Assembly (NCBI RefSeq): GCF_932294415.1
Contig: NC_065537.1
Location: 2,418,001-2,482,000, forward strand
DNA from: Quercus robur
Taxonomy: Eukaryota > Streptophyta > Magnoliopsida > Fagales > Fagaceae
Direction: 5' to 3'
DNA length: 64,000 nt
The translations under genes and the position numbers were made by a program. The notes under the pieces were generated by a model that was not told the DNA's origin, did not search any database, and was given only the letters and a program-made list of their open reading frames with translations. Shown piece by piece: positions 17,067 through 58,843 of the stretch (position 1 is the first letter of the stretch; each line of letters starts with the position of its first letter).

Positions 17067-18019
17067 TGTTAGGACATATGTGGAACATGTTACGAACATA
17101 TGTCATTTAGAATTGGCTAATCTTTTGACAAAAGGCACTTTACTTGTGATTGGGTGGATCTAGGATGTGTTTAATAATACGAGAAACAAGAGTTCAAGTC
17201 CAAGTATTGAAACCATGCAAATCTAACCAAGAATCAAGTGAAGAAGTGTTGTTCATTAAAGCTCAACGATGTATCTAGTGATATTTAATATGTGAAGCTC
17301 GACAGCTATATCTATCGAGAATTATGAAATTCAGATTTCCAGATCTAATTTTCACGCATATCCAAGCTATTTGTGTAGAGTTACTTTTCTCACAACCCTA
17401 GACATATATAAAGATTATTTTAATGGCCGTCTCAAATGATGCAAAGGTTGTCGCACTTGTTGTTACATGCATATGGTGACCGAATACAATCTGCCCTAGT
17501 TCATCTTTCTCTTGAAGAAACTGTTACGTTTGTACGCCGTAGAGTTTTGTAACCAAGGAGTTTCTTGATCTTCATCGACTGGATGAACTGAAGAACTTTG
17601 TAGCCAACATATTTCTCAAGTTGGTGTGTTAGTCACGTATTGGGATCTGTGCATCGATTAGTTAGTCATGTACTTAGAGCCGTACATTGAAATGAGAGAT
17701 TGTCACTACATTACAAGTCCAATTGTGTATTGGGGTAAGGGTTCAACTATAGATTAGTATAAGGTACTGGGATTCTTACTTGTAACCGCTTGTTTTGATA
17801 ATAGTGGATTCTTGGGAGTGGTAACCTTAAATTCACCCAATGGGGTTTTGCCTTGGTGGTTTTCCCCATTCGTAAACAAATCACCCATGTCAAATTTAAT
17901 TTCCGCTGCATTTAGTTATTTAGTGATTTGTTTGTGCAACCACACGTATTGCATATTAATAAACTTGACTAATTAATTGGTCAATTTACCTAAAGGGTCA
18001 ATACATTCTTGGCTTATCA
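17067..18019 (+). mobile_element. Ty1/copia 5' LTR
   Basis: It starts TGTTAGGACATATGTG and ends CTTATCA, and is followed two bases later by a decayed initiator-Met primer-binding site (TCATATCAGGGTAGGC). It is homologous over its whole length to the solo LTR at 24535-25516. A TATA-like ATATATAAAG lies near 17404. The copia gag follows at 18092. Confidence 0.85.
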
Positions 18020-18091
18020 AGTCATATCAGGGTAGGCACATTCTGATTAGGTTTTAATCTTTACTATGTGATCCATTGACTCCTGTTTGTC

Positions 18092-19522: not shown

Positions 19523-21823
19523 TCAGGTGGAGGGTCTAGTTGGATCTGTCGTTTCATGCTGCCACTGGTCGATCACGGGAAAATGCAGGTCCTCACCGAG
19601 TAGGTCTTGTACAGTCAGGATACTGGTGGCTTCCATCTCATCTAGCTCTGCATGAGCATCAATCTGTTCCACCAGCTCCCTCATGCTTGCTGTTTCTTCC
19701 TCCTCAGCGGGCATTGTTGGCGCCTGAACAGCAGTAGCGGGGCTCGGAAAGGGGATTTGGCGGGGGTCTCTCAGGGGGGAATCCTCGGGAACGCCCAAAG
19801 CTTGCAGGGCGGCAAACCACCCAGCCTCAAAACCCAGCCTTCGAGCTTGGGCCACCACCGGTTCCGCAGATTTCTCGGCATCGGCAAACCCTTAGTTATA
19901 CCATTTTTGCTCACAGGCCTCCAAAGCTGCCCTTAGGTCAGTGAGTTCCTTGGCTTGGGAGGTGTTTAGGTTAATTGCTTTAGCTAGCTTCACGTCTGTT
20001 TCGTTCTGCTTAGCCAAGAGCTCCGAGCACCTCTTCTCTGCCAACGCTCTATTCTTCTCCGCGGCAGCAGCCTTCTTCTCGGCAGATTCAGCTGCCTTTA
20101 GTTTTTCCTTCGCCGTTTTGGCAACTAACTCCCGTGCCCCCCTCTCACGATCGACCTCCTCGGCAAGATCCTTTGCATGGCCAGCCAGTATGTGAGCCAA
20201 TTGAGTAGCCTGACAAACACAGAAGTTAGTACGGAAATGAAAAGAAATGAATGGAAAGTAATAGATGAACAAAGAGTTACCGCAATAGTATGCCACTCTA
20301 ACCGGCGCCCCACGGACTCCTCCGACCCGTCCTCAAAAGCATGCACATCGTCGGGAAGAAGAGGACCTTCAGCTAGGGTCTGACCACCCTCACCTTTCTC
20401 CCACATCCGCACACAGGCAGTTGAAGGCAGAGGCTTGCCGTCTAGTAGAAACTTAGGCTTCCACGCTAGTGCGGCTTGGGAGGAGGACGCAACGCCCGGC
20501 CCGACTTGGGTTTGCAGCTCGTGAATGACGATACCTCCTATTGGCCAGGGAGGGTTGATCAGCAACCCTCTGCTTTTTTGGGGCTCGTCTAGCTTGAGAA
20601 GAGGGTGGAGGGGGAGGCACCTGGCTTCGACCCTAAGAAGGTGGGGGCTGGGTGGGTTGTCGTGCACCGGGCACGAAACGATCAATGGTCATGACCCTCC
20701 TAGTCACCATGTCTTCGCCGAGATGGGTATCTGTAGCCGACAAGTTGGTCGCTTTAAGCACAGGATGCTCGGCCTCCACAACAAGGTTCTCGGGTACAAC
20801 GGGGTTCTTGGGCTGAGCGGGCTCTTGAACAAAGGCTTCTTCTTGAATAGCCTCGTGAGCTAACTCTCGAAGAAGCCGAGACACATGCTCCGCAGACTCG
20901 TCCCGCAAAGGAGCTAGCTCGTCCGAGCAGGTGTAGCGCTTTCCGAACTCCCTCGCCTCTCCAGTCGTAAGTTTCGGAGGCAGAAAATTCATGTACCGAG
21001 CGTCGATGTTCGACAAAAGTGGACTGTCAACCAATAGCGCCTATTTAAAGGACTGCCAGGTGGAATAAACGGGCTCTACTCTGAGGATCAGGTGCGAGGC
21101 TCGGAGTTGTCCGTCCCAATGCACGAATACCTCGGAACGGAGGATAAAGTTTAAGTCTTTAACGTGGACTGTTCTGATGTCCGGAACGAACACTTTGCCG
21201 TCTGCAAAAGAACGAAATGCTATATTAATATCTGATAATGAAAATCTACTTCAGTAAAGAGGAAATAAAAGAAAAAGAGGGGGGGGGGGGGGAAACGGTT
21301 AAGTCAAGAGATTGGTACGAACCCACTTCATGTCGTGAAAGAGGGCAGGGGACCTCCCCGGCAAACCAGTTGCTGCGCACCCGGACAAACTCCCTAGCCG
21401 AGTTCCTATTCGAATCAAGTAGGCATGATATCAGTCGTACCCGATTATCTCTAGTTTTTAGGTAAAAGTTGGAAGCTTTGTTCCCACAGAGACTATACAT
21501 GTGGTTAATATCATCGTAATCTAACTGTAAATCAAAGGTGTGGTTCAACCTACTAACGCAACTAACTACCCAGTAAAAGTTGGGGGGAAGCTGGTCGGAA
21601 CACAGCTTGTAGTACCTAAGTGTGTTAATCAAAAGGGGATCTAGGGGAACCTAAGTCCATCCTCTAGAATTGCCATTAAAGGAAAAAAGGTTGTACCATG
21701 CCCTCGGTGGAGAGCGATTTCGCTCTTGTGGCAGTAAGCCACTTCCACGTCATCGGGAACATTAAACTTTTGCCTAAAAATGGCCAAGGCAGCCGGGGCC
21801 TCCAGGAGATAAGAGTAACCCAT
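19523..21823 (-). pseudogene. antisense gene of a Tat-like element (gypsy-type putative transposase family)
   Basis: Exon 1 (21823-21323) starts MGYSYLLEAPAALAIFRQKF and includes NRVRLISCLLDSNRNSA. Exon 2 (21201-20281) starts after a TTTTGCAG acceptor with VFVPDIRTVHVKDLNFILRS. Exon 3 (20209-19523) is an Ala/Lys/Glu-rich coiled coil with an acidic tail. Introns of 121 and 71 bases fall at the same protein positions and phases as those in the antisense gene at 55201-57609: phase 1 in an Asp codon, and phase 0 before the coiled coil. Lesions include a 1-base loss near 21643 and in-frame stops at TAG/TAA where Gln is expected. The family resembles PF04195 proteins, annotated as putative gypsy-type transposase although no transposase activity is known. 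Its real function is unknown. Confidence 0.75.
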
Positions 21824-24534: not shown

Positions 24535-25516
24535 TGTTAGGACATATGTGATTTACTTGCTAGGAATATGTGTCACTATTTTATGTAATTGGTTAATCCT
24601 TTGACAAAACGCACTTTACTTGTAATTGGATAGTTCAAGTGTTAAAGTCATGCAAGTCTGTCCAAGATTCAAGTGAGAAAAGTGTTGTTATTAAAACTCA
24701 ACAGCTAGCTCGATAGCTAGCAATCTATCAAGCCTTGAAGAGTTGTTCTAGCTCGTGGCTTGACAGTAGCTCGACAGACAGGTATCTGTCGAGGTTTATA
24801 AAGTTTAGTTTTTCAGGACTGTTTTTCATTTAATCCTTGATTATATGTTTGGGCTTTCTTTTCTCACAACCCTAAACATATAAAAGGGTTATTTTAAGGG
24901 CCGCCAAAGGTGACACAAGTTGTACAAGTGTTGAGCAAAGTTTGTTCAAGCAAATTGTGACAAAAAACTGAATTTGCCCTAGTTCATCTTTCTTGTGAAG
25001 AAGCTGCTGTGTTTGTGCACCGTAGGGTTTTGTAACCAAGAAGCTTCTCGATCTTCATTGTGTGATAAACTGAAGAACTTTGCAGCCAACAACCTTCTCT
25101 AGTTGGTGATTGAAGTCGCGTACTAGGATCCACGCAATTGGTTAGTCATTTACTGGGAGCCGTGCATTACAAGAAGAGATTTTCACTACAGAACAAGTCC
25201 AATTAGGTATTGGGATAAGGGTTCAACTGTAGGTTGGTATAAGGTACTGGGATTCCTTTACTTGTAACCGCTTGTTTTGATAATAGTGGATTCTCAAGAG
25301 TGGTGACCTTAAAATCACCTAGTGGGGTTTTTGCCGTGTTGGTTTTCCTCATTCGTAAACAAATCATCATGTCAAATTTACTTTCCACTACATTTAACTT
25401 AGTTGGTGATTTGTTTATGCTGCCACGCATATTGTATGTTAATTTGATTAATTAATAAACTGGGCTAATTAATCAATTAATTTATCGCAAGGGGTCGATA
25501 AATTTTTGGCCTATCA
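24535..25516 (+). mobile_element. solo Ty1/copia LTR
   Basis: TGTTAGGACATATGTG to CCTATCA, homologous to the LTR at 17067-18019. It is flanked by AAACC (24530-24534) and AGACC (25517-25521), a one-mismatch 5-bp target duplication. It interrupts the transporter coding sequence after FCFTIGV. TATA-like ATATAAAAG lies at 24878-24886. Confidence 0.85.
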
Positions 25517-25816
25517 AGACCCCTATTGTGAAACAAAAGAATCCTATCGCACCCACTTGGCCTCGCCACCTTTTTCCCACAAGCTCAATTGTTAACACAT
25601 GTTTATTTGTTTAGACCTCTTAAAGTAGATAGTTTAACCTAATATATTAGCCAAGTGATTACTTAGGTTAATTACGAGATCTGGGTTAAACAAAGAAAGA
25701 TCATATTATGCAAACAGTGGAAAAGTAAATAACACACAGATATGATCACCTAAGAAGACCAATGAAACGAACCACTTCAAGGTAAAAACCTGGAGAGGAT
25801 TTAACCTAGCTATCCT

Positions 25817-28364
25817 TGTGGACACAATAGGGAGTTGCCACTTAGTTTTTTTAATGGTTTAGGAACCATATATATAGCGTCCTCCCGAGGAAGGACCATT
25901 GATCTTACTACCAGAGATATGGGTTCGGAGTTAAAGTACGGTCTTGGGAAGGTATTAAGCATCCAAAACCGCCTAACCCTAAGGTTGGCTTCCCTTTATT
26001 GTGTCTTATGTCTTAACCCTATTAAAGGCATATTCAACACGCTAACATGCATCTAGTAAAAAAATATGGCATCTTCATCCAAAAACCCTAGCATACATCT
26101 ATCATGGCATACACATCTCCTAACATACATCTATCTCATCTCATCCAAGGTAGCAAGCACGTTCACACATCATAATCACCACCAATCAAGGGAATTAATC
26201 AAGCATATACATCATGTTCATCAATCAAGAAATTTCATCATGTTCATTAACCAAATCAAATGCATGTTCATTTAATTATGCATGACTTACCTCACTTACC
26301 TCATAGCACCACAGCACCTATGCATCAATGTATCTTCATGTTCATATGCATGTTCATGTGATTCAACCAAGATATAAACCTTAATTATCAATTCCACAAT
26401 CAAAGCATGTGAAACACGTTATTCTACTAACCCTAGACCTAAACATGTGAAAAACTAGACTCGACAAGATCTAAACATGTGATTAAAACTAACCAAAACA
26501 AACAAAATAACAAGAACCCCATATTTGGGTTTCTGGGCATGAGGAAGTATGTGTACGCATGACTCTAGTATGCATATGCATACATAAATATGTGCACGCA
26601 TATTGCCTAGAAACACAGTTTTAAAACAAGTAACAAATAACAATAAATAAATAAATAAAACCTAGCATGCTTATAATATATTACCAAATCACCTAAACTA
26701 CCAAAAAAATTATCAAAGATAAAAATAAATAAAATAAAATAAAATAAATAAAAAAGGAAAAACAAACAACACCTATTCCTAAACATGCATTATATTTAAC
26801 AATAAATAAGAACAACACTTAACACATCAAAACATGTTCATCAATATCCAATCATATTAACTTTCCAATCAAAACATGATATAAACCTTAATTATCAATT
26901 CCACAATCAAAGCATGTGAAACACGTTATTCTACTAACCCTAGACCTAAACATGTGAAAAACTAGACTCGACAAGATCTAAACATGTGATTAAAACTAAC
27001 CAAAACAAACAAAATAACAAGAACCCCATATTTGGGTTTCTGGGCATGAGGAAGTATGTGTACGCATGACTCTAGTATGCATATGCATACATAAATATGC
27101 GCACGCATATTGCCTAGAAACACAGTTTTAAAACAAGTAACAAATAACAATAAATAAATAAATAAATAAAACCTAGCATGCTTATAATATATTACCAAAT
27201 CACCTAAACTACCAAAAAAATTATCAAAGATAAAAATAAATAAAATAAATAAAAAAGGAAAAACAAACAACACCTATTCCTAAACATGCATTATATTTAA
27301 CAATAAATAAGAACAACACTAAACATATCAAAACATGTTCATCAATATCCAATCATATTAACTTTCCAATCAAAACATGGTGAGACAAAACAAAACAAAA
27401 TATGTTTCTAAGCATGAATAACATATAAATTAAGTAAGAAAAACAAAAACACAAATTATAAAAGATACAAATCAAGGAAAAGCCATGAAGAGAGATTCAC
27501 CTTGCTACGGAACACAAACTTGATTGATATTTAACCGACCCCTTAGTGCCTACACAACAAAATCAAATGACAATCAAAGGAATCAAATTATTTCAATAGT
27601 TCATAAGTGATCACAACTCAAAATAAAAAAGCATTATTGAAGAGATTGTTTTGAAAACGGTTTTGTAAGAATCTAGAAAGTAGTTTCTGCCTTAAGACTA
27701 TTAAAGAGAGGTTTTGAAGAACAAAAAAAAATGTTCATGATGGTTGTGTGTGCAGAAAATAAGAGTTAGAAAAGTGTTTTAGAGAAGTTTAGGTGAAAAA
27801 TCCACTATCTCTTGCTAGGGTCTAAGTTTGGAGGCATAAGTATGTATTTATATGTTTAAACTAGGGTTTTCATGCTTATTTTTAGGGTTTTGGACATTCC
27901 AAAGGGTCTAGGGGCCGGGCCTCATCAAAGAGGTAGGATTTGGGCTCTAAAACATGAAGTTTTGGGCCTCTGGAAAGCAGCTTGTGTGCACAGGCTTGAA
28001 GCTACATACACATGCATTCTCCTCACGCACACATGTGTTCCCAGAAATCCTAATTTTGACAACTCTAATGGGCCTATTTCAAACGGTCATAACTCACTCA
28101 ATTTAACTCCAAATTAGGCCAAATATATGTTCAAATTGAAGCTCAGGATGTCTACTTTCCAATGAAATAAATCTCACTCAAAAATTATTTGTCAATCAAA
28201 CATTATGGTAAAAACAATGAAGAAATGTCATTTTTCAGCATTGTTTTCAAAGAAATTTGAGTACTTTTGAGTTGTAATTACTTCTAAACTATCAAAATAA
28301 CTTCAATTACCTTTTGTAGACCTGCAAACTCGTCATTGGGACCAGGGACTAAAGTTTATTAACT
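25817..28364 (-). repeat. 3' LTR of the gag-only gypsy element
   Basis: Homologous to 33000-34958 but longer because of an internal 507-bp tandem duplication. About 20 bases at its 5' end (the TGTAGACACC.. start) appear deleted. The preceding polypurine tract on minus is CCAAAAGAAGGG (28381-28370). Confidence 0.7.
26371..27379 (+). repeat. 507-bp tandem duplication inside the LTR
   Basis: Copy 1 is 26371-26877 and copy 2 is 26878-27379. Both start GATATAAACCTTAATTATC. They differ by only a few substitutions and by the number of AAATA-type units. The other LTR has a single copy, so the duplication post-dates insertion or arose in the last replication cycle. Confidence 0.95.
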
Positions 28365-32999: not shown

Positions 33000-34958
33000 A
33001 GAGTTGCCACCGGGGAGTCGCAACCTAATTTTGTAATGGTTTAGGAACCATATATATAGTGTTCTCTCAAGGAAGGACTATTGATCTTACTATCAGAGAT
33101 ATGGGTTCAGAGTTAAGGTACAGTCTTGAGAACGTGTTAGACACTTAAAATTGCCTAATCCTAAAGTTGACTTCCTCTCATTGTGTCTTATATCTTAACC
33201 CTATTAAAGGCATATTCAACACTTTTATACTCATATACACACTAACATGCATCTAGTAAACAAACATGACATCTTCATCCTAAAACCCTAGCATGCATCT
33301 ATCATGGCATACACATCTCCTAGCATACATCTATCTCATCTCATCCAAGGCAACAAGCACGTTCACACATCATAATCACCACCAATCAAGCATATTCATC
33401 AATTAAGAAATCTGATCATCCTCATCACCCAAATCAAATACATGTTCATGTAATTATGCATGACTTACCTCACTTACCTTATAGCACCACCGCACCTATG
33501 CATCAATGCATGTTCATGTGATTCAACCAAGATATAAACCCTAATTATCAATTCAACAATTAAAGTATGTGAAACATGTTATTCTACTAACCCTATACCT
33601 AAACATGTGAAAAAATAAACTTAATAAGACCTAAACATGTGATCAAAACTAACCAAAACAAACAAAATAGCAAGAACCCTAAATTTGGGTTTCTGGGCAC
33701 AAGGATGCGTACGCATACCACCCAGAACCACAATTTTAAAACAAACAACAATTAAACAAAACCTAGCATGCTTCTTATATATAACCAAACCACCTAAACT
33801 AACTACAAAAATATCAAAGATTAAAAAAAAAAAAAAAAAAAACCTATTCCTAAACATGCATTGGATTTAACAAGAAACAAGAACACTTAACACATCAAAA
33901 CATGTTCATCAATATATCCAATCATATCAACTTTCCAATCAAAACATAGTGAGACAAAACAAAACAAAACAAAACATATTTCTAATCATGAATAACATAT
34001 AAATTAAGTAAGAACAACAAAAACACAAATTATAAAAGATCCAAATCAAGGAAAAGCCATGAAGAGAGACTCACCTTACTATGGAACACAAACTTGATTG
34101 ATATTTAATCGGCTCCTCAGTGCCTACACAACAAGGTCAAATGACAATCAAAGGAATCAAATTATTTGAATGCTTCATAAGTGATCACAATTCAAAATAT
34201 AAAGGCATTATTGAAGAGATTGTTTTGAAAAAGGATTCAGAAAGTAGTTTCTGCCTTAAGACTACTAGAGAGAGGTTTAGTACAACAAAAAAAAAAAAAA
34301 ACATTCATGGTGGCTGTGTGCACAGAAAATAAGAGTTAGAAAAGTGTTTTGGAGAAGTTTAGGTGAAAAATACACTCTATCTTGCTAGGATCTGAGTTTG
34401 GAGGTATAAGGATGTATTTATATGTTTAAACTACAATTTTTAGGCTTATTTTTAGGGTTTTGGACATTTCAAAGGGTCTAAGGGTTGGGCCCCATGAACG
34501 AGATAGGGTTTGAGCCCTAAAATATGAAGTTTTGGGCATTTGGAAAGCATCTTGCATGCGCAGGTTTGAAACTGCATACGAATGCATTCTCCTCGTGCAT
34601 GCATGTGTTCCCAAAAACCCTAATTTTGACTATTCTGATGGCCCAACTTCAAACTGTCATAACTCACTCAATTTAAGTCCAAATTAGGCAATATTTGTAT
34701 TCAAATTTAAGCTCAAAATGTCTACTTTCCAATGGAACAAACCGTACTAAAAAAGACCTTGTGGATCAAAATTTATGGTCAAAATAGTGAGAAAATATCA
34801 TTTTTCAACATCGTTTTCAATTAGATTTTAGCACTTTTGAGTTGTGATTACTTCAAAACTATCAAAATAACTTCAATTACCTTTTGTAGACATGTCAAGC
34901 TTGTCATTGGGACCAAGGACTAAGGTTTATTAACTGGGTACAAAATGAGGTGTCTACA
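33000..34958 (-). repeat. 5' LTR of the gag-only gypsy element
   Basis: It starts on minus with TGTAGACACCTCATTTTG at 34958 and shares long colinear stretches with 25817-28364. The inner border near 33000 is approximate. No primer-binding site could be recognised, which suggests decay. Confidence 0.7.
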
Positions 34959-47417: not shown

Positions 47418-47674
47418 TGTAAGACATAATTTACTATTTACTTATTGTAATTTATTAAATTTGGGATTTTTATGTAAAAAAAAATGTTATTTTAGGTTTA
47501 GGTGATTTATTTCCTTGTTTTTAGGTGCTTTTAATGTTTTTAGGTCAAATTTAGTTCCTGTTATGGTTAGGCATTAATTAGGATTTATTTTAGAATATAT
47601 TTTCTTGTCTGCCTAATTTTATAGAGCCTTTAAATAGGCCCCTAAGTTTGTACACGTTTTTCATAGATTATTGA
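47418..47674 (+). mobile_element. possible older LTR, left part
   Basis: It may start TGTAAGACATAATTTAC. It runs up to ATTGA, where the Tat-like element is inserted, and appears to resume at 58844 with motifs such as TTATTGTCTCTCTGGTGAAT and GGATTCAAGGAATCCTCG. These recall gypsy LTR 3' regions. The ends are not proven. Confidence 0.35.
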
Positions 47675-48350
47675 TGTGGGGCCCGGCCCAAAATAATGGG
47701 CTAGTCAAACCACGGGCCCGTTCGAGAAGATCCTGTCCGAGGAGAAGTCACAGCCAAAACCTTATTCAAGCCCAATTGCGGTAAAAGAAACCTGTCCGAG
47801 GAGTAACTCCTCCTCGGAAATTACGAAGTTCGGACGAAGAGCTCGCCCCAACCATTGCAGTTCATCCTCCAAGCATATAAAAAAGAATAAAACCCAAAAT
47901 ATCTCATGGAAAGCTGCCACCACCATATTAAATGTGTCACAACCACCCTCTTGGCCGCATTAATGAGGAAAAGACCCCTGAACAGTATTACCTTGGCCAC
48001 TGCAACTCACAAGGGAGTGATAAGGGTGTTTGATAGAACAGGTGCTCAAGTGGGGGCTTAGATGATCAACAAGTGTAAGGTTCAGATAAGAATGAGAGAG
48101 CTACGTAATGTAGTGGAGTCCCTCAAAGAGAGGGGGGAAAAAATGCATTCGGCACTCAGGAAATAGAATCTTCTGTTAGATATCCATTCTTGTGTTTTTA
48201 TTCCTGCAACAATATTTTCCATGCATCAGACCGATTAAGGTAACTGAGGCTAAGTTCTTAGACCCATCCTCTACAAATACTTATTGTGGGTTGCGCCTTG
48301 GGCCAAGGCCTGATCAATAGGGTTTGGGCCAGGAAAATCGTGCAACTACA
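47675..48350 (+). repeat. 5' LTR of the Tat-like element
   Basis: TGTGGGGCCCGG to CAACTACA. A TATA-like CATATAAAAAAG lies at 47874-47885. The motif CCGAGGAG recurs here and in the internal regions. Confidence 0.95.
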
Positions 48351-48352
48351 AT

Positions 48353-48370
48353 TGGCACCGTCTGTGGGAA
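48353..48370 (+). promoter_or_regulatory. primer-binding site
   Basis: TGGCACCGTCTGTGGGAA begins two bases after the LTR, as expected for a tRNA 3'-end complement starting TGG. The tRNA was not identified. Confidence 0.75.
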
Positions 48371-48403
48371 GAACTAGGGCATCAGCTAGCACAACGGTCG
48401 AGT

Positions 48404-49389
48404 ATGGCAGAACTAGGCCCACACCAGGAGAATCCTCACCAGGCTAACTCCCAACAGACACAACCCGCCGAGTCCCAGAGGCAAAATAACCCCACCAACC
48501 CAAGCGGCAGGGGGAATTGTGAGGGAAGTGTGCATACTATCCGGACGAGCCAAAGCCACACTCAGATAGGTAGTCACATGTCCCAGAGGCGAAATAGTCA
48601 TCAGGCCATGCAGCGAGAGATAGATGACCTGAAAAGGAAGTTACGACGTGTGCGGCGAAAACGATCTCCCTCTGACTCAGACGAGTTTTCTAATGCGGAG
48701 GATGCGAGTTACCGACGGAGGTCAAGGACCCCCCAAGTGAAACATTTTCCTACGAAAGGGAACCACGCCCTGTACGGAAGTATGAGAACCCATCTAGCAA
48801 GGGTTCGGGGAACGATGTTATGAAGAAGGCGCTGGACCAGGTTTCAAGGTCACCCTTCACGTATAGAATTGAAGGGGCTAAGCTGCCTCGACGCTTCAAC
48901 CAACCGGCGTTCGCCATCTATAACGGCCGAGCAGACTCGGTAGAGCATGTGAGCCAGTTTAACCAGAAAATGGTAATCTACTCGCAAAATGAAGCCCTAA
49001 TGTGCAAAATCTTCCCATCCAACTTGGGATCAATGGCGAAGAGGTGGTTTAACAACTTGAAGACAAATTCCATAGGCTCCTACAAGCAGCTTACTCAGGC
49101 TTTCTGCTCCCGTTTTATCACAAACACCAGAGCCTCTCGACCCCTTAGTTCACTATTGTCCTTATCCATGCACGAAGGAGAAACCCTGAAAGCATACTCG
49201 GATAGATATTGGGAGGTGTATAACGACTTAGATGACAACCATGATGATGTTGCTATCAGCACGTTCAAAAGTGGCCTTCCCACCGAGCATAGCTTAAGGA
49301 AATCCCTCACTGGTAAACCAGTTGCCGACGTTCATCAGTTGATGGATAGGATCGACAAGTACAAAAGGGTGGAGGAAGATCAGCTGTAA
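48404..49389 (+). pseudogene. gag of the Tat-like element
   Basis: ATG at 48404 opens a polar, Gln/Arg-rich N-terminus. A one-base loss in a six-C run at 48729-48734 shifts the frame; from 48820 the main gag-pol frame holds the capsid core (RRFNQPAFAIYNGRADSVEH, KRWFNNLKTNSIGSYKQLTQ, RPLSSLLSLSMHEGETLKAY). It ends at TAA 49387, where CAA (Gln) would keep the frame open. Gag forms the particle in which reverse transcription occurs. Confidence 0.9.
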
Positions 49390-50355
49390 GGAAGGGGAAA
49401 GGAGAAGGTCATCCCCCCCAAAGCAAATGACTTTAGGTCGGAACGGTATAACCCTAGCCAGCCGAGGAGAGATTTTTCGCGACAGGCTGGACAGAGCCAC
49501 CCACAAACAGTGAATGCCGTGTTCAGGGAGCCAATACAACAGGTGCTGGAGAAAGTAAGGAACGAGCCCTATTTTAGATGGCCAGGAAAGATGGCCGGAG
49601 ACCCTTCCAAACGTAACCAGAACCTGTACTGCCACTATCATCAGGACCATGGGCATACCACCGAGGATTGCAGGAATCTATGGAATCACCTGGATCAGTT
49701 GGTCCAAGAAGGGAAATTACGTCACCTTCTGCACCCCTCGAGCGGCCACACCGGTCAAGCAATACAAGAATCCCGAAAGGATGTGTCCTTAAGACCCCCC
49801 GCCGGAACGATACATGTCATCCTCGCCGCACTAAGGAGAACTGGGCCACCCATCCCCAGGATACTGGCTGTTGATCAGCTTCCTTCCGAGGACAGCCAAA
49901 GGGAACCCAAAAGGTCAAAAAAGCGAAGCTCTTTGATACTGGGATTCTCGGATGAGGATAAGAGAGGAACTATTCAACCTCACGACGATGCCTTGGTCGT
50001 TACGTTAAGAATTGGAGGCTTCGATGTTAAAAGGGTGTTAGTAGACTTGGGAAGTGCGGTAGAGATAATGTACCCTGATCTATACAAGGGGCTGAACCTG
50101 AAGCCGGAAGATTTGACAGCCTATGACTCCCCCCTTCTCAGCTTCGAAGGGAGGATTGTTACACCAAAGGGGCAGATTCGACTACCCATACAGACTGGGT
50201 CGGAGGTGGTCGAGGTAAATTTTATCGTGGTCGATGCTTACTCACCCTACACCGCAATAGTTGCCAGGCCATGGATCCACGCCCTAGAAGCCGTATCCTC
50301 CACACTTCACCAAAAAGTAAAATACCCATCCAGGGGACAAGTAGAAGAGATCTGA
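49390..50355 (+). pseudogene. gag C-terminus and protease
   Basis: Same frame as gag. A zinc-knuckle-like CHYHQDHGHTTEDC lies at about 49631-49672, followed by a linker and the protease around 49980-50300. The active-site region reads VDLGSAVEIMYPDLY, where retropepsins normally have D-S/T-G; here the residue after the Asp is Leu. The frame is stopped by TGA at 50353, and by TAG at 50440 in the following linker. Confidence 0.85.
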
Positions 50356-50559
50356 GGAGATCAGGCCGTAGCCAGGAAGTGTATGGTGGCCGCCATCTTA
50401 CATCGGCCCGATGTCGAGTCCTCGGCCCCACAGAGCTTATAGCAACCAGCCTCCTCGGCCAGGCAAGGGGATGGCCTAGCCGAGGAGATAAGGTGTGAAA
50501 GTTTAGATAAGATCGCTGTCAACAACGACCCGGAGAAGTTTTTTCAGGTCGGCTCTGAG

Positions 50560-51486
50560 TTGCCTTCTCAAGAAAAAGAGGAACTGGTCAGATTTCTCAG
50601 AGGAAATGTCGACGTGTTTGCATGGGACGCCTACAACGCCCCAGGAGTTGATCCTAGCCTTATTTGTCACCACCTGAACGTCAACCCCTCTTCCACTCTG
50701 AAGAAGCAGCCACCCCGACGCCCTTCAAAGGAACATGCTAGTGCCGTAAGAAACGAAGTGGCAAAACTGAAAAGAGCAGGAGCTATTAAAGAGGTCTTTT
50801 ACCCCGAATGGTTGGCAAACACGGTGGTGGTAAGGAAGAAGACAGGGAAGTGGAGAGTCTGCGTGGACTTCATGGACCTGAACAAGGCGTGCCCAAAGGA
50901 CCCATTCCCCCTTCCCCGAATCGACAGATTGGTGGATGCCACCATGGGTCACCCTCGAATGAGCTTCTTGGACGCCTTCCAAGGCTATCATCAGATCCCC
51001 CTTGCGCTAGAAGACCAAGAGAAGACGGCTTTCATGACGCCCATCGGAAATTATCACTATAAGGTGATGCCGTTTGGGCTGAAGAACGCAGGCTCAACCT
51101 ACCAAAGGATGATGACCCGGATGTTCGAGCCACAGCTGGGCAAGATCATTGAGGTTTACATAGACGATATGGTTGTAAAGAGTAAAAGGGTGTCCGAGCA
51201 CGTGAAAGACCTCGAAAAAATCTTCGCTATCTTAAGGGAACACCGGTTGCGGTTGAATGCTTCCAAATGTTCATTCGGGGTCGGGTCGGGGAGATTTTTA
51301 GGGTACATGGTAACCCACAGGGGAATAGAAGTGAGCCCTGATCAAATCAAAGCAATAAACAGCCTACAGGCTCCTCGGAACCCGAAGGAAGTGCAGAAGC
51401 TCACTGGTATGATTGCAGCATTAAACCGGTTCATATCGCGGTCAGCGGATCGATGTCGACCTTTTTACCTCCTGATAAATAAGTAG
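50560..51486 (+). pseudogene. reverse transcriptase
   Basis: An open 308-codon stretch with the RT motifs in order: GKWRVCVDFMDLNKACPKD, MSFLDAFQGYHQIPLALEDQ (first catalytic Asp), MPFGLKNAGSTYQRMM, VYIDDMVVKS (catalytic YIDD, at about 51154) and LNASKCSFGVGSGRFLGYM. All catalytic aspartates are present. It stops at TAG 51484 at the RT/RNase H border. Confidence 0.95.
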
Positions 51487-52428
51487 AAAGGGTTTGAATG
51501 GTCGGAGGATTGTGTTCTGGCTTTCTAGCAGCTTAAGGAATACCTGTCACGACCACCCATCATGTCCAGCCCTGAGGCAGACGAGGTGTTGTTTGCATAC
51601 ATCGTTGTAGCTCCCCATGCTGTAAGCCTGGTACTGATATAGGATGATAATGGGGTGCAGCGACCGGTTTACTATGTGAGCAAATCATTACATGAGGCCG
51701 AGGTGCGATACCTACCTCTAGAAAAGGCAATTCTGGCGGTAGTACATGCCACCCGGAAGCTCCCTCATTACTTTCAGGCGCATACGGTCATCATTCTAAC
51801 TCAACTTCCCCTTCGAGTAGTGCTTCGAAACGCTGACTACACAGGAAGGATCGCCATGTAGAGTGCGCTTTTGGGGGCCTTTGATATTAAATATATGCCC
51901 AGATCCTCCATCAAAGGTCAGGTCCTCGCAGACTTGGTAGCGGAGTTTGCTGAACCCTCTATAGAAACAATAACCGAGAAGAAAAACATGGATGGAAAAT
52001 CGGTTGGTGTAATTTCAGCAGGGGGGACCTTGCATTGGAAGGTCTACGTGGATGGCGCGGCCAACTAGAGAGGATCTAGAATTGGGATAGTTTTAATATC
52101 ACCGGACGGTGCTGTCATTGAAAAATCACTGAGGCTCGGGTTCTCGGCTACGAACAATGAAGCCGAATACGAAGCTTTACTTCAAGGGATGACGATGGTT
52201 CAAAGATTGGGTGGAACAGTAATAGAAGCATTCTCGGACTCCAGGTTGGTCGTCAGCCAAGTGATGGGTGAGCTGGAAGCCAGAGATGCTAGGATGCAAG
52301 AGTATCTAGGACAAGTTAAACGCTTACAGACAAGTTTTGAATCCTTCAATCTGACGCACATTTCCAGGAGTGTAAACACCCATGCAGACTCGCTGGCCAC
52401 TCTCGCCACGTCCTCGGCGTATAATCTA
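51487..52428 (+). pseudogene. tandem RNase H domains
   Basis: The same frame continues with the usual Ty3 RNase H (RPVYYVSKSLHEAEVRYLPL, ILAVVHATRKLPHYF) and then a second RNase H of the RVT_3 type (WKVYVDGAAN at 52046, SATNNEAEYEALLQGM, EAFSDSRLVVSQVMGE, HADSLATLA) with the D-E-D-D residues visible. Two RNase H domains are a known trait of the Tat lineage. Five TAG stops in this gag-pol segment (51484, 51526, 51640, 51859, 52066) break it. Confidence 0.9.
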
Positions 52429-53757
52429 CCGCGAATGATCCTTGTCGAAGATCTAGTCCAAGTAGGTCCCATTAGAAGAAACCCGGCCCAGGTCCATCAG
52501 ATCAGAAAGAGCCCCAGCTGGATGGATTCCATTAAGAACTTCCTCCAAGACGACATCCTACCAGAGGAAAAGTTGGAGGCCGAGAAGGTACGGAGGAATG
52601 CTCCTCGGTTCTGGCTATCGGAGGACTACAAACTATATCGGCGCTCCTACTCTGGACCGTACCTACTCTGCGTACATCCAGAAGAATCCGAGTCTCTACT
52701 TGAAGAGTTACACGAGGGAATTTGTGGAAGTCACACCGGAGGGAGGTCGCTGGCGCACAGGGCACTCACCCAAGGATACTGGTGGCCGAACATGCAAAGA
52801 GAGGCCCAAGAATACGCTAAGAAGTGTGATCAGTGCCAAAGATTTGCCCCAAATATCCACCAACCTGGAGGGGTTCTCAAGCCCCTCTCTAGCCCATGGC
52901 CGTTCGCACAATGGGGTCTTGATATTGTCGGACCATTCCCCAAAGCCGCGGGGAACAAGCGATACATCATAGTCGGAACCGATTACTTCACTAAATGGGT
53001 GGAGGCTGAACCTTTGGCCAACATTAGGGACATGGATGCCCAGAAATTCATCTGGAAGAACATTATCACCCGCTTCAGAACTCCACGTACACTCATTTCC
53101 GACAATGGTCTTCAATTCGACAGTAAGAGCTTTAGGGAGTATTGCCGCGAGTTTGGGATAATTAACCGATATTCCACCCCCACCTACCCCCAAGGAAATG
53201 GGCAAGTCGAGACCGTGAACAAGGTCATAGTGAACGGACTGAAGAAAAGACTGGATGAGGCAAAGGGGAGATGGGTAGAAGAGCTCCCACACGTTTTATG
53301 GACCTATCGGACAACGCTGCGACGGTCAACCAGTGAGACCCCCTTTTCGTTGACTTATGGGGCTGAGGCCGTGCTCCCAATCGAGAACAACTTTCCCACA
53401 CTGAGGTCTAACTCGTTTACCCCAAACGGTAACGACGAGTTGTTGGGAAGAAGTCTAGACCTAGCCGAGGAAAGAAGGGAAAAAGCAACGATCCATATGG
53501 CCTATTATCACCAGAAGCTGAGACAAGGGTATGATGCCAATGTTAAACTACGACCTCTAGGTCCGGGTGATCTCGTGATAAGGAAGATTCTCGGTAGCGC
53601 AAAAAACCCCTCTTGGGGCAAGCTGGGGCCCAGTTGGGAAGGACCACACCATGTCACTTCTGTGGCTGGGATAGGCGCCTACTATCTAGAAGATTTGGAT
53701 GAAAAAACTGTACCTCGACCATGGAATGTAAATAACCTCAGAAGATATTATTATTAA
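52429..53757 (+). CDS. integrase
   Basis: Open to TAA at 53755 (the open frame begins before 52189, inside RNase H). It shows the HHCC zinc domain (LLEELHEGICGSHTGG, YAKKCDQCQRFAPN), the catalytic core with D (WGLDIVGPFP), D (LISDNGLQF) and E (PQGNGQVETVNK), and a C-terminal module (LRPLGPGDLVIRKILG, PSWEGPHHVTSVAGIG). The enzyme inserts element cDNA into the genome. This domain alone is lesion-free, but it would normally be made from the upstream polyprotein, which is interrupted. Confidence 0.9.
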   Translation, partial: PRMILVEDLVQVGPIRRNPAQVHQIRKSPSWMDSIKNFLQDDILPEEKLEAEKVRRNAPRFWLSEDYKLYRRSYSGPYLLCVHPEESESLLEELHEGICGSHTGGRSLAHRALTQGYWWPNMQREAQEYAKKCDQCQRFAPNIHQPGGVLKPLSSPWPFAQWGLDIVGPFPKAAGNKRYIIVGTDYFTKWVEAEPLANIRDMDAQKFIWKNIITRFRTPRTLISDNGLQFDSKSFREYCREFGIINRYSTPTYPQGNGQVETVNKVIVNGLKKRLDEAKGRWVEELPHVLWTYRTTLRRSTSETPFSLTYGAEAVLPIENNFPTLRSNSFTPNGNDELLGRSLDLAEERREKATIHMAYYHQKLRQGYDANVKLRPLGPGDLVIRKILGSAKNPSWGKLGPSWEGPHHVTSVAGIGAYYLEDLDEKTVPRPWNVNNLRRYYY

Positions 53758-53828
53758 TGAAAGTGGTTTAGCCCATGTTTTGTTTCGTGATTATCTCCTC
53801 CCTACTGGCCTATTCATAACTATTCATA

Positions 53829-54881
53829 GTTTTAAACAAAACCTAAGTCTTGCATGGCTCCTCGGACCACAGACTTAGGGGAAATTATTACTCATGACAA
53901 TTTATACAAGTTTTAAACAGAACCTAAGTCCTGCATGGCTCCTCGGACCACAGACTTAGGGGAAATTATTACTTATGGCAACTATTCATAGTTTTAAATA
54001 GAACCTAAGTCCTGCATGGCTCCTCGTACCACAGACTTAGGGGAAATTATTACTCATGACAATTTATACAAGTTTTAAACAGAACCTAAGTCCTGCATGG
54101 ATCCTCGGACCACAGACTTAGGGGAAATTATTACTTATGGCAACTATTCATAGTTTTAAACAGAACCTAAGTCCTGCATGGCTCCTCGGACCACAGACTT
54201 AGGGGAAATTATTACTCATGACAATTTATACAAGTTTTAAACAGAACCTAAGTCCTGCATGGCTCCTCGGACCACAGACTTAGGGGAAATTATTACTCAT
54301 GACAATTTATACAAGTTTTAAACAGAACCTAAGTCCTGCATGGCTCCTCGGACCACAGACTTAGGGGAAATTATTACTTATGGCAACTATTCATAGTTTT
54401 AAACAGAACCTAAGTCCTGCATGGCTCCTCGGACCACAGACTTAGGGGAAATTATCACTCATGACAATTTATACAAGTTTTAAACAGAACCTAAGTCCTG
54501 CATGGCTCCTCGGACCACAGACTTAGGGGAAATTATTACTTATGACAACTATTCATAGTTTTAAACAGAACCTAAGTCCTGCATGGCTCCTCGGACCACA
54601 GACTTAGGGGAAATTATTACTCATGACAATTTATACAAGTTTTAAACAGAACCTAAGTCCTGCATGGCTCCTCGGACCACAGACTTAGGGGAAATTATTA
54701 CTTATGACAACTATTCATAGTTTTAAACAGAACCTAAGTCCTGCATGGCTCCTCGGACCACAGACTTAGGGGAAATTATTACTCATGACAATTTATACAA
54801 GTTTTAAACAGAACCTAAGTCCTGCATGGCTCCTCGGACCACAGACTTAGGGGAAATTATTACTTATGGCAGGTTGGGAAA
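53829..54881 (+). repeat. 81-bp tandem array, 13 units
   Basis: Units start GTTTTAAACAGAACC every 81 bases from 53829 to 54801. The core GTCCTGCATGGCTCCTCGG is nearly invariant, and the arms CCTAAGTC and GACTTAGG form an 8-bp stem in each unit. The last 20 bases come in two types, ATGACAATTTATACAA (A) and CTTATGGCAACTATTCATA (B), in the order A B A B A A B A B A B A B. It lies between pol and the antisense gene. Confidence 0.97.
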
Positions 54882-55200
54882 TTATTACTTGAGGGAAATC
54901 ATTTTAAGGCGTGCGCGCAGTCTAGTACCATTGCAACCCTCATTCAAATTCGCCGCCCAGCATCCTTTTTATCTCGACCATTTACATTTATTTATGTCAT
55001 TGCAAACGTTAAAGAAAAAAAAAAAAGGAGTGGTACTAGCATACATCCATAGAAAGCAAAGCGAACGTTCTATATTAATATTCCGAGGTCAATACAAAGA
55101 GAGGTCCTTACAAAAGAGCGCAAAAACAGGACGACTCTCATTCAAAAAAATAATAATAATAAAGAGAGGAAGGGAATATAAAAATTAAAAAGCCTAAAAG

Positions 55201-57609
55201 CTAAGCCTTGGCAGGAGGATCTTCTTTCTGCTCTGGCTGAGGAGGAGGAGCCTCGATGGTAGGGTCCATAGCAAGATCCTTCGATTTATCAGGCACAGGG
55301 ACGGCATCAGGCACCGCCAGATCCTGCTCCGAAGCCACTTGGACGCCATCAGGATTCTCTCGGATCTCCTGAGGATAGAAGATGTTCTCGGGCAGTCTCA
55401 GCGCCGAATCCACAAGAATTCCTGCAGCATCAAGGGCGTGAGCCCATGAGATGCTGCAGTAGTCCCTGCACACCTCGGGGATCTCCTCGGATAGCCTGGC
55501 CTCCGTTTCTTGGACCCCGAGCTGACGAGAAGCACTTTTTTCAGCCTTTGCAGCTTCTTGTTTCAGCTGGGCCTCCTCTTTGACCCGCCGCAGCTCATCC
55601 TCGACTTTTTGCAGGGCAACCTTGACATCCAGCACTGCCTGCTTCTCGGTGGCAAGGTTGATCTGGGTCGAGTACAGCTCTTTGCACTGATCCTCTGCCT
55701 GGGTCTCAGCACTTTTCAAACCGGCCTCTGCACTCTTGCGCCGTTTCTCTGACTCCTTGAACTTCTCTGTGAGTTCAAGGTGATCGTGTTTGAGGGATCC
55801 CAAGGCTTTCTCCATCTCCGTCCGAGACTGGGTCTCGGCCTCAGCCCGACTGCGATTATCACGACAAAATTCCTCGGCCACAAATACCTGCTGAGTAATC
55901 TGCGAACGAAACAAGATTGGTTTAAAACTTAGCAGGGTAAAATAAATTAATAAAACAGTGAAAGGATTACTTACCATCGCGAGATCCCTTTTGAGGGATA
56001 GGAAAATCTCAGGCTGAGAGAACCGCCTATATGCCTCCATATCCCGAGGAAGGAGTAGGGGTTACACCAAGGCATCAGCCACGTACCCTGCTCGGCCCCG
56101 GTTGTACTCTCGGATCAACGAATTGTAGGGGATGGCAACCCTATCCAGCTCCAACTTGGGGCTCCATGTACGCAGGGTAGCGCGCACCTTAGCACGATTT
56201 TCATCGTCCCGGCTCTCCGTGGAGTTTGCCCTCTTACTCCTCTGTCCCTTAGTAGCCTTTTGCTACTTGGCCGGTCGAAGAGCCACTTCACCCTCCTCAG
56301 GAATGTCAGCCTGCCTCTTCTTTTTTAGGTCAGGGTTAACCTTGAGGCCAGGGTCAGAAGGGACCTGAGGGGCGATTGGAGGAGGATCCTGGGTTTGTGC
56401 CTTGGCAGGCGCCTTTGAGGACTGACCCTTTCCTCGGCTGGACATCAATTCTTGCAAAGATTTTCCCATATCACCTACTTCCCCGTTCGAGGAGTCGTCC
56501 GAGCAAGTTATTATGATTGGACCGCTAGCCACGGAGTTGCGGTCCTGCTCTCTTTCAGGATCAAAAAGCTCAACCACGGAGTCTTGCTGAACCTCCTCTC
56601 CAAAATAAAACTCGTCTATCTCTTCCTCAAGGGAAAGACGAGACGATTCGGTTTCCCCTTCAACCGGGACAGCAACGCCAGGTTCGTCTAGCGGAGGTAG
56701 TTGCTCTGCTAGATAGGGATCTCGAACGCCGGGTAGTACGACTGGTGGAAGATCACGTTGAGCTAGGAACCCGGTCTTAGACACGTCAATCCTAGCCAAC
56801 CTCAGACTGCCAGCCCTTATGGCGTGACCGATAGCTTGGAAAGAGCGGCTTAGAGGTTGATAGCCCAGAACGAGATGAGCCGCACGTAACTGTCCGTCCT
56901 CGGTAACGTAAATTTCCGACCTTAGAAGGTAGTTCAACACCGGCACATTCACGAGGCTTAGCCGAGGAGCGACATGAGCTTTATCTGCAAACGTCCAAGA
57001 AAAGTGGGATTAGTTCATGAAATTTTCCAATTGTAAAGAAAGCGAGAAAAATAACCCCCCAATACTAAACCCTTTCCCGAAAAGGATTGGCCCTAAAGAC
57101 GCCGCACCTGGGATTCCTGCCCGAGTTGGACAATGAATACCATCGAACCACTCCCCCGAAGCAATAAGGAAATCATTCTTCATGGTCTTATTGGATATTG
57201 GGAGACAAGAGATCAACCTAACGACCTTGGATCGGGATTTAAGATAATACCCTCCGTTCTCGATGTGGTGACACTCATACAGATAAACCACATCGTGCCA
57301 GGTAAGGCCTAGATTCATCCGCTCGTCTAGGACATCTACACAGCCTAGTATCTTGAACATGTTTGGGGCACACTGATGCGGTGTCAACCTATGGTTGAAC
57401 ATGTATTCCCTTGTAATCCTACGCATGGGAAGTGTCATCCCTCCCTCTATGAAAGCAATCATGGGGATAACAACTTCTCCCTCGCCTCTATCTGTCAATA
57501 CTCCTTCAAGAGGACAGTACTGCAGCCCCACCCCCGGGGGAATGTGGTATTTTGCCCTAAAGGCCTCCATAGCGGCCGGAGTTTTTACTAGTTTTTCAAA
57601 TCTACCCAT
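55201..57609 (-). pseudogene. antisense gene of the Tat-like element (gypsy-type putative transposase family)
   Basis: Exon 1 is 57609-57108 (MGRFEKLVKTPAAMEAFRAK, CHHIENGGYYLKSRSKVVRL), exon 2 is 56984-55975 (VNVPVLNYLLRSEIYVTEDG, then an acidic region and a basic KKKRQ/KRAN stretch) and exon 3 is 55899-55201, a long Lys/Glu/Ala coiled coil with a Pro-rich tail. Introns of 123 bases (phase 1, acceptor GTTTGCAG) and 75 bases (donor ATG/GTAAGT, phase 0) have canonical borders on this strand. The joined length is 2211 bases. Two in-frame stops, TAG at 56265 and TAA at 56064, lie where Gln codons would fit; there is no frameshift. The second intron has no stop and a length divisible by three, so its removal is inference. 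The family is related to PF04195; no catalytic motif is visible and the role is unknown. Confidence 0.8.
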
Positions 57610-58163
57610 CTAAGCTGAACTGGAGGAATGAAAATAAAGACCGAGGAGAAAAGTAAAGTCCGAGGAGAGAATCGGAACGGCGAAATGAACGAAATTTACC
57701 GATACCTTCACAAAACGCTCAATGGGATGCCTGGAAATCTCTCTTGGAGGAGACGCTTCACGAAAAACGGCTATGGAGGCTTAGCGGACGCAAGTATTTA
57801 TAGATCTCTGGAGTTCGATGGAGTTCTCTAGAATCCTCTGGGGTTTATGAGATGCAGATAAAAAGAAAAACTGAAACCCTCTGACATCTTATATAGCCGG
57901 GAGGAGAGAGAAAAGATCGCTCCTGCCTAAAAAGTCGAGAAAAAATGATGGCCGTTCGATCCACGTCTCACCGTTGGATGAAGGGGACAGAAAGCCTTCG
58001 GAAGTAAATGGCCACGCCTCGTAAATTGTAGCGCGTTGTAGCGCGTCCAAAGTAACTGCCCGCACGCGCGCCCCAAGCCCTCCTTACCTCCATCCTCTCA
58101 CTAACATCAAAACCCCGCTTTTCTCTTCGGAAGGAGATAAAAACCGGAGTTTTGAGGGGCTAT
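57610..58163. other. 5' region of the antisense gene and polypurine tract
   Basis: Non-coding. It holds the leader of the minus-strand gene and, at the other end, TTTTGAGGGGCTAT (58150-58163), the probable polypurine tract priming plus-strand DNA directly before the 3' LTR. The GGGGCTA motif is shared with the element ending at 22879. Confidence 0.65.
57888..57896 (-). promoter_or_regulatory. TATA-like box for the antisense gene
   Basis: The minus strand reads CTATATAAG about 280 bases before the ATG at 57609. It is inside the element but outside the LTR, so the antisense gene could have its own promoter. Confidence 0.5.
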
Positions 58164-58838
58164 TGTGGGGCCCGGCCCAAAATAATGGGCTAGTCAAATC
58201 ACGGGCCCGTCCGAGAAGATCTTGTCCGAGGAGAAGTCACAGCCAAAACCTTATTCAAGCCCAATTGCGGTAAAAGAAACCTGTCCGAGGAGTAACTCCT
58301 CCTCGGAAATTATGAAGTTCGGACGAAGAGCTCGCCCCAACCATTGCAGTTCATCCTCCAAGCATATAAAAAAGAATAAAACCCAAAATATCTCATGGAA
58401 AGCTGCCACCACCACATTAAATGTGTCATAACCACCCTCTTGGCCGCATTAATGAGGAAAAGACCCCTGAACAGTATTACCTTGGCCACTGCAACTCACA
58501 AGGGAGTGATAAGGGTGTCTGATAGGACAGGTGCTCAAGTGGGGGCTTAGATGATCAACAAGTGTAAGGTTCAGATAAGAATGAGAGAGCTATATAATGT
58601 AGTGGAGTCCCTCAAAGAGAGGGGGGAAAAATGTATTCGGCACTCAGGAAATAGAATCTTCTGTTAGATATCCATTCTTGTGTTTTTATTCCTGCAACAA
58701 TATTTTCCATGCATCATACCGACTAAGCTAACTGAGGTTAAGTTCTTTGACCCATCCTCTACAAATACTTATTGTGGGTTGCGCCTTAGGCCAAGGCCTG
58801 ATCAATAGGGTTTGGGTCAGGAAAATCGTGCAACTACA
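58164..58838 (+). repeat. 3' LTR of the Tat-like element
   Basis: Same ends as the 5' LTR, 18 substitutions and one indel apart by eye. Confidence 0.95.
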
Positions 58839-58843
58839 ATTGA

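Follow-up and report, generated by a model that had tools for sequence, protein, structure and literature searches.

Antisense genes located between pol and the 3' LTR have already been published for retrotransposons of the Retand (Tat) type, as the original prediction had noted for Tat-group elements; antisense ORFs are reported in both PMC11963269 and PMC7264820, and in the former TRP28 is found in 97% of Retand clusters. Retand elements are described there as having a long region between pol and the 3' LTR (2.9-6.6 kb), an antisense ORF and often a tandem array (PMC11963269), and a further mark of the group is a second RNase H (aRH) between the RNase H and the integrase (PMC6317226). Both surveys employed ORF finders, with a length cut-off of 600 bp in PMC11963269 and of 250 codons in PMC6317226, where the antisense ORF is named eORF-3'R. 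In maize Grande, gene23 was described as an antisense accessory gene with its own promoter and a nuclear product (Gomez-Orte 2013, via PMC7264820), and the same review calls for a search for spliced antisense transcripts that may exist. The word 'intron' is absent from the main texts of PMC11963269 and PMC7264820, supplements aside, and in PMC6317226 it appears only for the sense-strand Ogre intron and in the title of a reference. No description of introns in antisense TRP28 genes was found in the open-access literature that was searched, an earlier description elsewhere being possible.

The window, that is the whole stretch of 64 kb that was analysed, contains a Ty3/gypsy element at positions 47675-58838, with the following parts.

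47675..48350, plus strand: 5' LTR, 676 bp, with the target-site copy ATTGA before it at 47670-47674
48694..49386, plus strand: gag piece, PF03732 (1.9e-13)
50443..51483, plus strand: reverse transcriptase (RT) piece, PF00078 (3.8e-32)
52069..53754, plus strand: RNase H-like (PF13456) and integrase (PF17921, PF00665) piece
53737..55008, no strand: tandem array with an 81-bp period, flanked by pol and by the 3' end of the antisense gene
58164..58838, plus strand: 3' LTR, 675 bp, with the target-site copy ATTGA after it at 58839-58843

The element is structurally complete, with paired LTRs ending in TG...CA and a 5-bp duplication (ATTGA) on both sides, so that the complete LTR retrotransposon of the original prediction was recovered. 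The 5' and 3' LTRs differ by 18 substitutions and one 1-bp gap across 676 aligned columns. When the element was tested by profile search, its domains appeared in the order gag, RT, RNase H and integrase, as for Ty3/gypsy, and the protease match was weak and under the cut-off (PF13650, 0.0085). The gag-pol of this copy is a single frame with eight in-frame stops ahead of the terminal stop. A single PF13456 match was detected in the element with a profile set that holds no aRH model, and the region from pol to the 3' LTR, of about 4.4 kb, contains both the antisense gene and the 81-bp array, as described for Retand (Tat) elements. Judged on this architecture, the element is probably of the Retand type (Tat, Ty3/gypsy), and its sizes (LTR of 676 bp, pol to 3' LTR of about 4.4 kb) fall inside the ranges published for Retand in PMC11963269. 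Elsewhere in the window, a number of long direct repeats, spaced 6.5-7.2 kb and sharing 71-92% identity, were observed at 25847-28016 and 33029-34586, which suggests another, older LTR element.

The antisense gene lies on the minus strand, between the 81-bp array and the 3' LTR, from an ATG at 57609 to a stop at 55203-55201, and is divided as follows.

57108..57609, minus strand: exon 1, 502 nt, with the ATG at 57609 and a TRP28-like domain
56985..57107, minus strand: intron 1, 123 nt, GTGCGG...TTGCAG, phase 1, holding an in-frame stop
55975..56984, minus strand: exon 2, 1010 nt, with stops of the window copy at 56265-56263 and 56064-56062
55900..55974, minus strand: intron 2, 75 nt, GTAAGT...TCGCAG, phase 0
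55201..55899, minus strand: exon 3, 699 nt including the stop, charged and coiled-coil-like by eye
57888..57895, minus strand: TATATAAG box upstream of the gene and outside the LTR, candidate promoter element

A three-exon gene opposite gag-pol, between pol and the 3' LTR, with canonical GT..AG introns in its own direction, had been predicted; its junction bases (57108/56984 and 55975/55899) proved to be exact, and the ends of both introns can be read off the window copy as given above. The longest open stretch on the minus strand, of 286 aa, exceeds chance (mean 112.5 and maximum 203 in 300 Markov shuffles). The spliced frame of the window copy has two internal stops, both in exon 2 (codons 408 and 475), and because of these and of the eight stops in its gag-pol, the window copy is a fossil.

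The genome (786 Mb) was searched for copies of the gene, and family A was taken as the best 40 of 1592 candidates, window copy included; similarity over the full query decided the ranking, which favours copies without indels. The antisense gene is thus present in at least 40 copies at 89-100% identity (best 40 of 1592). An uninterrupted spliced frame of 736 aa was found in 4/40 of these copies; of the others, two lack internal stops and show a shifted end, 1-5 internal stops occur in 30, and at least seven in four.

In intron 1, the donor GT is intact in 40/40 copies and the acceptor AG in 39/40, and in intron 2 the figures are 40/40 and 38/40, respectively. Therefore, GT/AG is kept at 157/160 splice ends, compared to 92% expected from the variation in the interior of intron 1 (p = 9e-4, a rough value as the copies are related). 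An in-frame stop is present within intron 1 of 39/40 copies, the exception being L009, in which the boundary of exon 1 is shifted by one base. Both introns are multiples of 3 in length, and by subtraction intron 2 adds no in-frame stop in 37/40 copies; as it is a multiple of 3 and rarely adds a stop, its splicing is not needed for the frame of family A. These lengths, and the lack of added stops in the second spacer, would be compatible with an organization without true introns, consisting of two or three separate ORFs, or of one read-through ORF with spacers, in the way that ORF-finder surveys list them, but the conservation of the splice ends and the stop in intron 1 (the fortieth copy being the shifted L009) argue against it, and with the data for further genes given below we regard it as very improbable. 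Only one gap was seen in the 198 bp of the two introns, a figure to be read with the fact that sampling of the best full-length copies favours few gaps. The introns are T-rich on the gene strand compared to the exons (0.38-0.56 vs. 0.19-0.30, in the window gene and in L050 of family B, minus exon 4 of L050).

Genes of two other families, B and C, were obtained by a PF04195 search of the genome, which gave 150 scored matches of 4148 candidates, 12 of the 150 being fetched and picked to spread over match types. Splice models were built with anchored patterns chosen from alignments and tried on nine loci, of which seven were completed; L044 and L046 were not, their acceptor patterns being unmatched, and L041, L043 and L052 were left out. 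The B and C genes have three introns each, the extra middle one being absent from A, and 6/7 completed models are intact (642-671 aa), with an internal stop in L047. As in A, the first intron of all seven models has phase 1 and the final one phase 0. The 21 modelled introns measure 65-116 nt, and 12/21 are not multiples of 3, with at least one such intron per model, because of which the B and C frames are restored only by intron removal. With regard to the donors, intron 1 has GTGCGG in most A copies, GTGCGT in all seven completed models of B and C and GTGTGT in L044; GTAAGT is shared by the second intron of A and the middle one of B and C.

For family B, a copy set was obtained with the joined exons of L050 as query, and the best 40 of 337 candidates were scored. 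Every match in this set was broken at the exon junctions, and no intronless (processed) copies were found among these best 40 of 337. Exon 2 measures 180 nt in 40/40 scored copies, and intron 1 ranges from 86 to 90 nt and intron 2 from 73 to 107 nt, with a modulo-3 remainder of 1, 2 or 0 in 19, 12 and 9 copies, respectively. Spacers of which 12/21 are not multiples of 3 and which differ in length between copies again argue against the absence of true introns. In one family B copy (G000:C5:77942002-77942714), a tandem duplication covers the end of exon 1 together with part of exon 2.

The position of these genes was checked in one B element and in one C element. Reverse transcriptase and integrase are encoded beside the gene and on the opposite strand in both cases (in L053 for L050 of family B, and in L054 for L048 of family C), with 45-55% identity to those of the window element over both domains and 53-55% for RT alone. 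The family B genes L045, L050 and L051 were also seen to be followed by a tandem array, with units of about 66 bp. Kept splice sites in three element families bear out the central claim of the original prediction, namely that an intron-bearing gene is carried antisense and propagated with its introns. Capture of a host gene, or of a fragment, directly from the genome would also yield an intron-bearing structure, but a recent capture by one element copy appears extremely improbable in view of the 40 or more copies at 89-100% identity and of the related gene in the same place in two families whose RT is only 53-55% identical; in addition, no TRP28 outside transposable elements is reported in PMC11963269. 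An ancient capture of a host gene is possible.

A second gene of the same kind was detected within the window.

19523..21823, minus strand: W2, decayed gene of the same kind, 32-39% amino-acid identity by exon piece
21322-21202, minus strand: first intron of W2, 121 nt, phase 1
20280-20210, minus strand: second intron of W2, 71 nt, phase 0

The introns of W2 interrupt the same residues and in the same phases as those of the window gene (compare ...AGIP/DKAHV with ...RHEV/DGKVF, and ...DLAM/ITQQ with ...HTIA/ATQL), an equality of positions and phases that also speaks against the absence of true introns. Direct repeats with 77% identity were noted around W2, at about 17296-18021 and 24768-25518. 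In the comparison of A with B and C, the profile alignment ends some 11 residues ahead of the B intron, and the last intron was not reached with significance; as the alignment stops short of the introns, their common origin in A and in B and C is likely, but not proven.

The effect of selection was analysed in 38 copies of family A, the frameshifted L006 and L009 having been dropped. Mean pairwise dN/dS was 0.258 for exon 1, 0.221 for exon 2 and 0.215 for exon 3, and 0.225 for the whole spliced frame of 736 codons; thus, a value near one, named in the original prediction as the contrary outcome, failed to appear. The introns read in frame gave values also below one, 0.485 and 0.345, on only 40 and 24 codons. 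Pairwise divergence at codon positions 1, 2 and 3 was 5.3, 3.8 and 10.2%; for the introns it amounted to 6.0 and 7.7%, and for the upstream flank to 9.2%. Variants common to at least four copies were distributed over codon positions 1/2/3 as 37/36/113 (p = 2e-14), whereas singletons were evenly distributed (162/148/164, p = 0.62). As the third-position excess is seen in shared variants and not in singletons, selection acted during propagation and decay followed insertion. For family B, dN/dS per exon was 0.05-0.19 (four copies, all six pairs), with dS above 1, and hence imprecise, in 10/12 exon comparisons with L042. Every exon in families A and B is under purifying selection.

These data also bear on whether the antisense transcript acts mainly as RNA, pairing with the genomic RNA, giving rise to siRNA or damping pol, with the protein being incidental. 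The gene is wholly inside the element and antisense to it, and the possibility was raised in the review PMC7264820. However, a role as RNA predicts no codon bias, whereas the shared variants favour third positions and dN/dS is 0.05-0.26 in the A and B exons; likewise, the length of exon 2 is fixed in all the scored family B copies while that of intron 2 varies. We therefore regard a role mainly as RNA as improbable.

Upstream of the gene, the TATA-like box that had been predicted outside the LTR corresponds to TATATAAG at 57895-57888, and is kept in 36/40 family A copies. The more relaxed pattern TATA[AT]A is present at this site in 39/40, L033 being without extracted sequence there, and a second TATA at 57802 was found in 1/40 only. 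In the 40 copies, conservation of the TATA stretch does not clearly exceed that of the sequence around it, and the use of this stretch as a promoter is a prediction from its sequence and position. In several copies, the leader upstream of the ATG at 57609 and the matching loci showed GTAAGT-like and AG motifs by eye, which may correspond to a further intron in the 5' UTR. A conserved poly(A) signal was considered and dropped, as AATAAA was found downstream of the gene in only 8/40 family A copies.

The proposed link of the product to PF04195 held in part. Exon 1 of the window gene reached 16.0 bits, under the Pfam cut-off of 26.2, but the relatives L050 (family B) and L049 (family C) passed it with 42.1 and 40.2 bits, and a profile comparison aligned residues 16-167 of A with 118-270 of B and C (E = 2.9e-7, probability 93%). 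Residues G57, P61, P82 and N83 are nearly invariant (at least 90%) in 14 aligned pieces, some of them partial, and their spacing is that of the conserved TRP28 residues G21, P25, P46 and N47 published in PMC11963269, L34 and F55 not being part of the comparison. Matches to a fibronectin-type domain (PF23003) and to a bZIP-like domain (PF00170) were set aside as their scores were under the cut-off. A fold search of the protein gave no match, and hence none backing DNA binding. Based on the literature (PMC7264820; PMC11963269), the protein might be nuclear and DNA-binding, form a coiled-coil dimer and help the element in trans, for example in nuclear entry, integration or transcription, a role that we put forward as a speculation and hold to be rather doubtful.

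With its exon-intron structure, its kept splice sites and frames, the selection on it and its antisense placement, seen in a single element for each of families A, B and C, the antisense gene is, with high probability, a spliced protein-coding accessory gene of a Retand-type element, with its own TATA promoter and with introns kept by virtue of its antisense position; its transcription, splicing and promoter use are deduced from the sequence. In such a scheme, integrated copies would be read by RNA polymerase II from the TATA promoter, situated between the 3' LTR and the start of the gene, and the antisense transcript would be spliced and translated into a protein that has a TRP28-like domain at its N-terminus, followed by a low-complexity region and an end resembling a coiled coil. 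The genomic RNA would carry the introns as their complement (CT...AC), invisible to the spliceosome, and because CT...AC cannot be spliced, for reasons of strand chemistry, the introns would survive copying, pass unspliced through reverse transcription and be inherited by the new copies. Such survival fits the presence of introns in the 40 A copies and in the 40 scored B copies. The introns may in addition serve as a strand check, the full protein being made only from nuclear RNA of the antisense promoter and never from genomic RNA.

In a broader reading, the separate 'antisense ORFs' of Retand/Tat elements, at least in eudicots, could be exons belonging to a single ancient gene that is spliced; it would descend from an intron-bearing cellular gene taken up introns included, and its antisense orientation would have shielded those introns from loss over a prolonged succession of reverse transcriptions. 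We advance this tentatively, as a serious possibility falling somewhat short of an even chance. Surveys of unbroken ORFs would fragment such a gene, which may explain part of the heterogeneity of 'extra ORFs'. The conserved exon-intron structure opens its annotation, phylogeny and expression to direct testing in RNA data, the shared intron positions provide a new marker for the origin of the gene, and a gene carried backwards represents a route by which a retroelement keeps introns in the long term. The finding of introns also answers the call for spliced antisense transcripts in PMC7264820.

Compared to known systems, only the intron architecture would be new, as antisense genes, one of them with its own promoter (Grande), have already been published. 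The TRP28 (PF04195) ORFs of Retand share with the genes described here the antisense orientation, a location after pol and before the 3' LTR, a domain of TRP28 type and an adjacent tandem array; the surveys list unbroken ORFs, whereas the ORFs described here make up the exons of a single gene whose introns are conserved from family to family. As far as its description goes, gene23 of Grande resembles the window gene in being antisense between pol and the 3' LTR. In HTLV-1, the antisense gene HBZ likewise belongs to an LTR retroelement, and its transcripts undergo splicing and polyadenylation, according to PMC1459196; because of it the principle of a spliced antisense gene is not wholly new. 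However, HBZ transcripts start inside the 3' LTR, and of an animal retrovirus, whereas the candidate promoter here is outside the LTR, and in genes of the window type the coding region itself is split by two or three introns. Splicing of sense RNA in plant LTR retrotransposons is described for the Ogre intron (PMC6317226) and for the env of Bagy2 (PMC7264820). As Ogre and Bagy2 splice their sense RNA, a fraction of this RNA has to remain unspliced to be copied, a loss from which antisense introns escape. Retrotransposition assays make use of an antisense indicator cassette with an intron in the sense of the element, which is lost on copying. Here, in contrast to those cassettes, the intron lies in the sense of the gene and is kept on copying.
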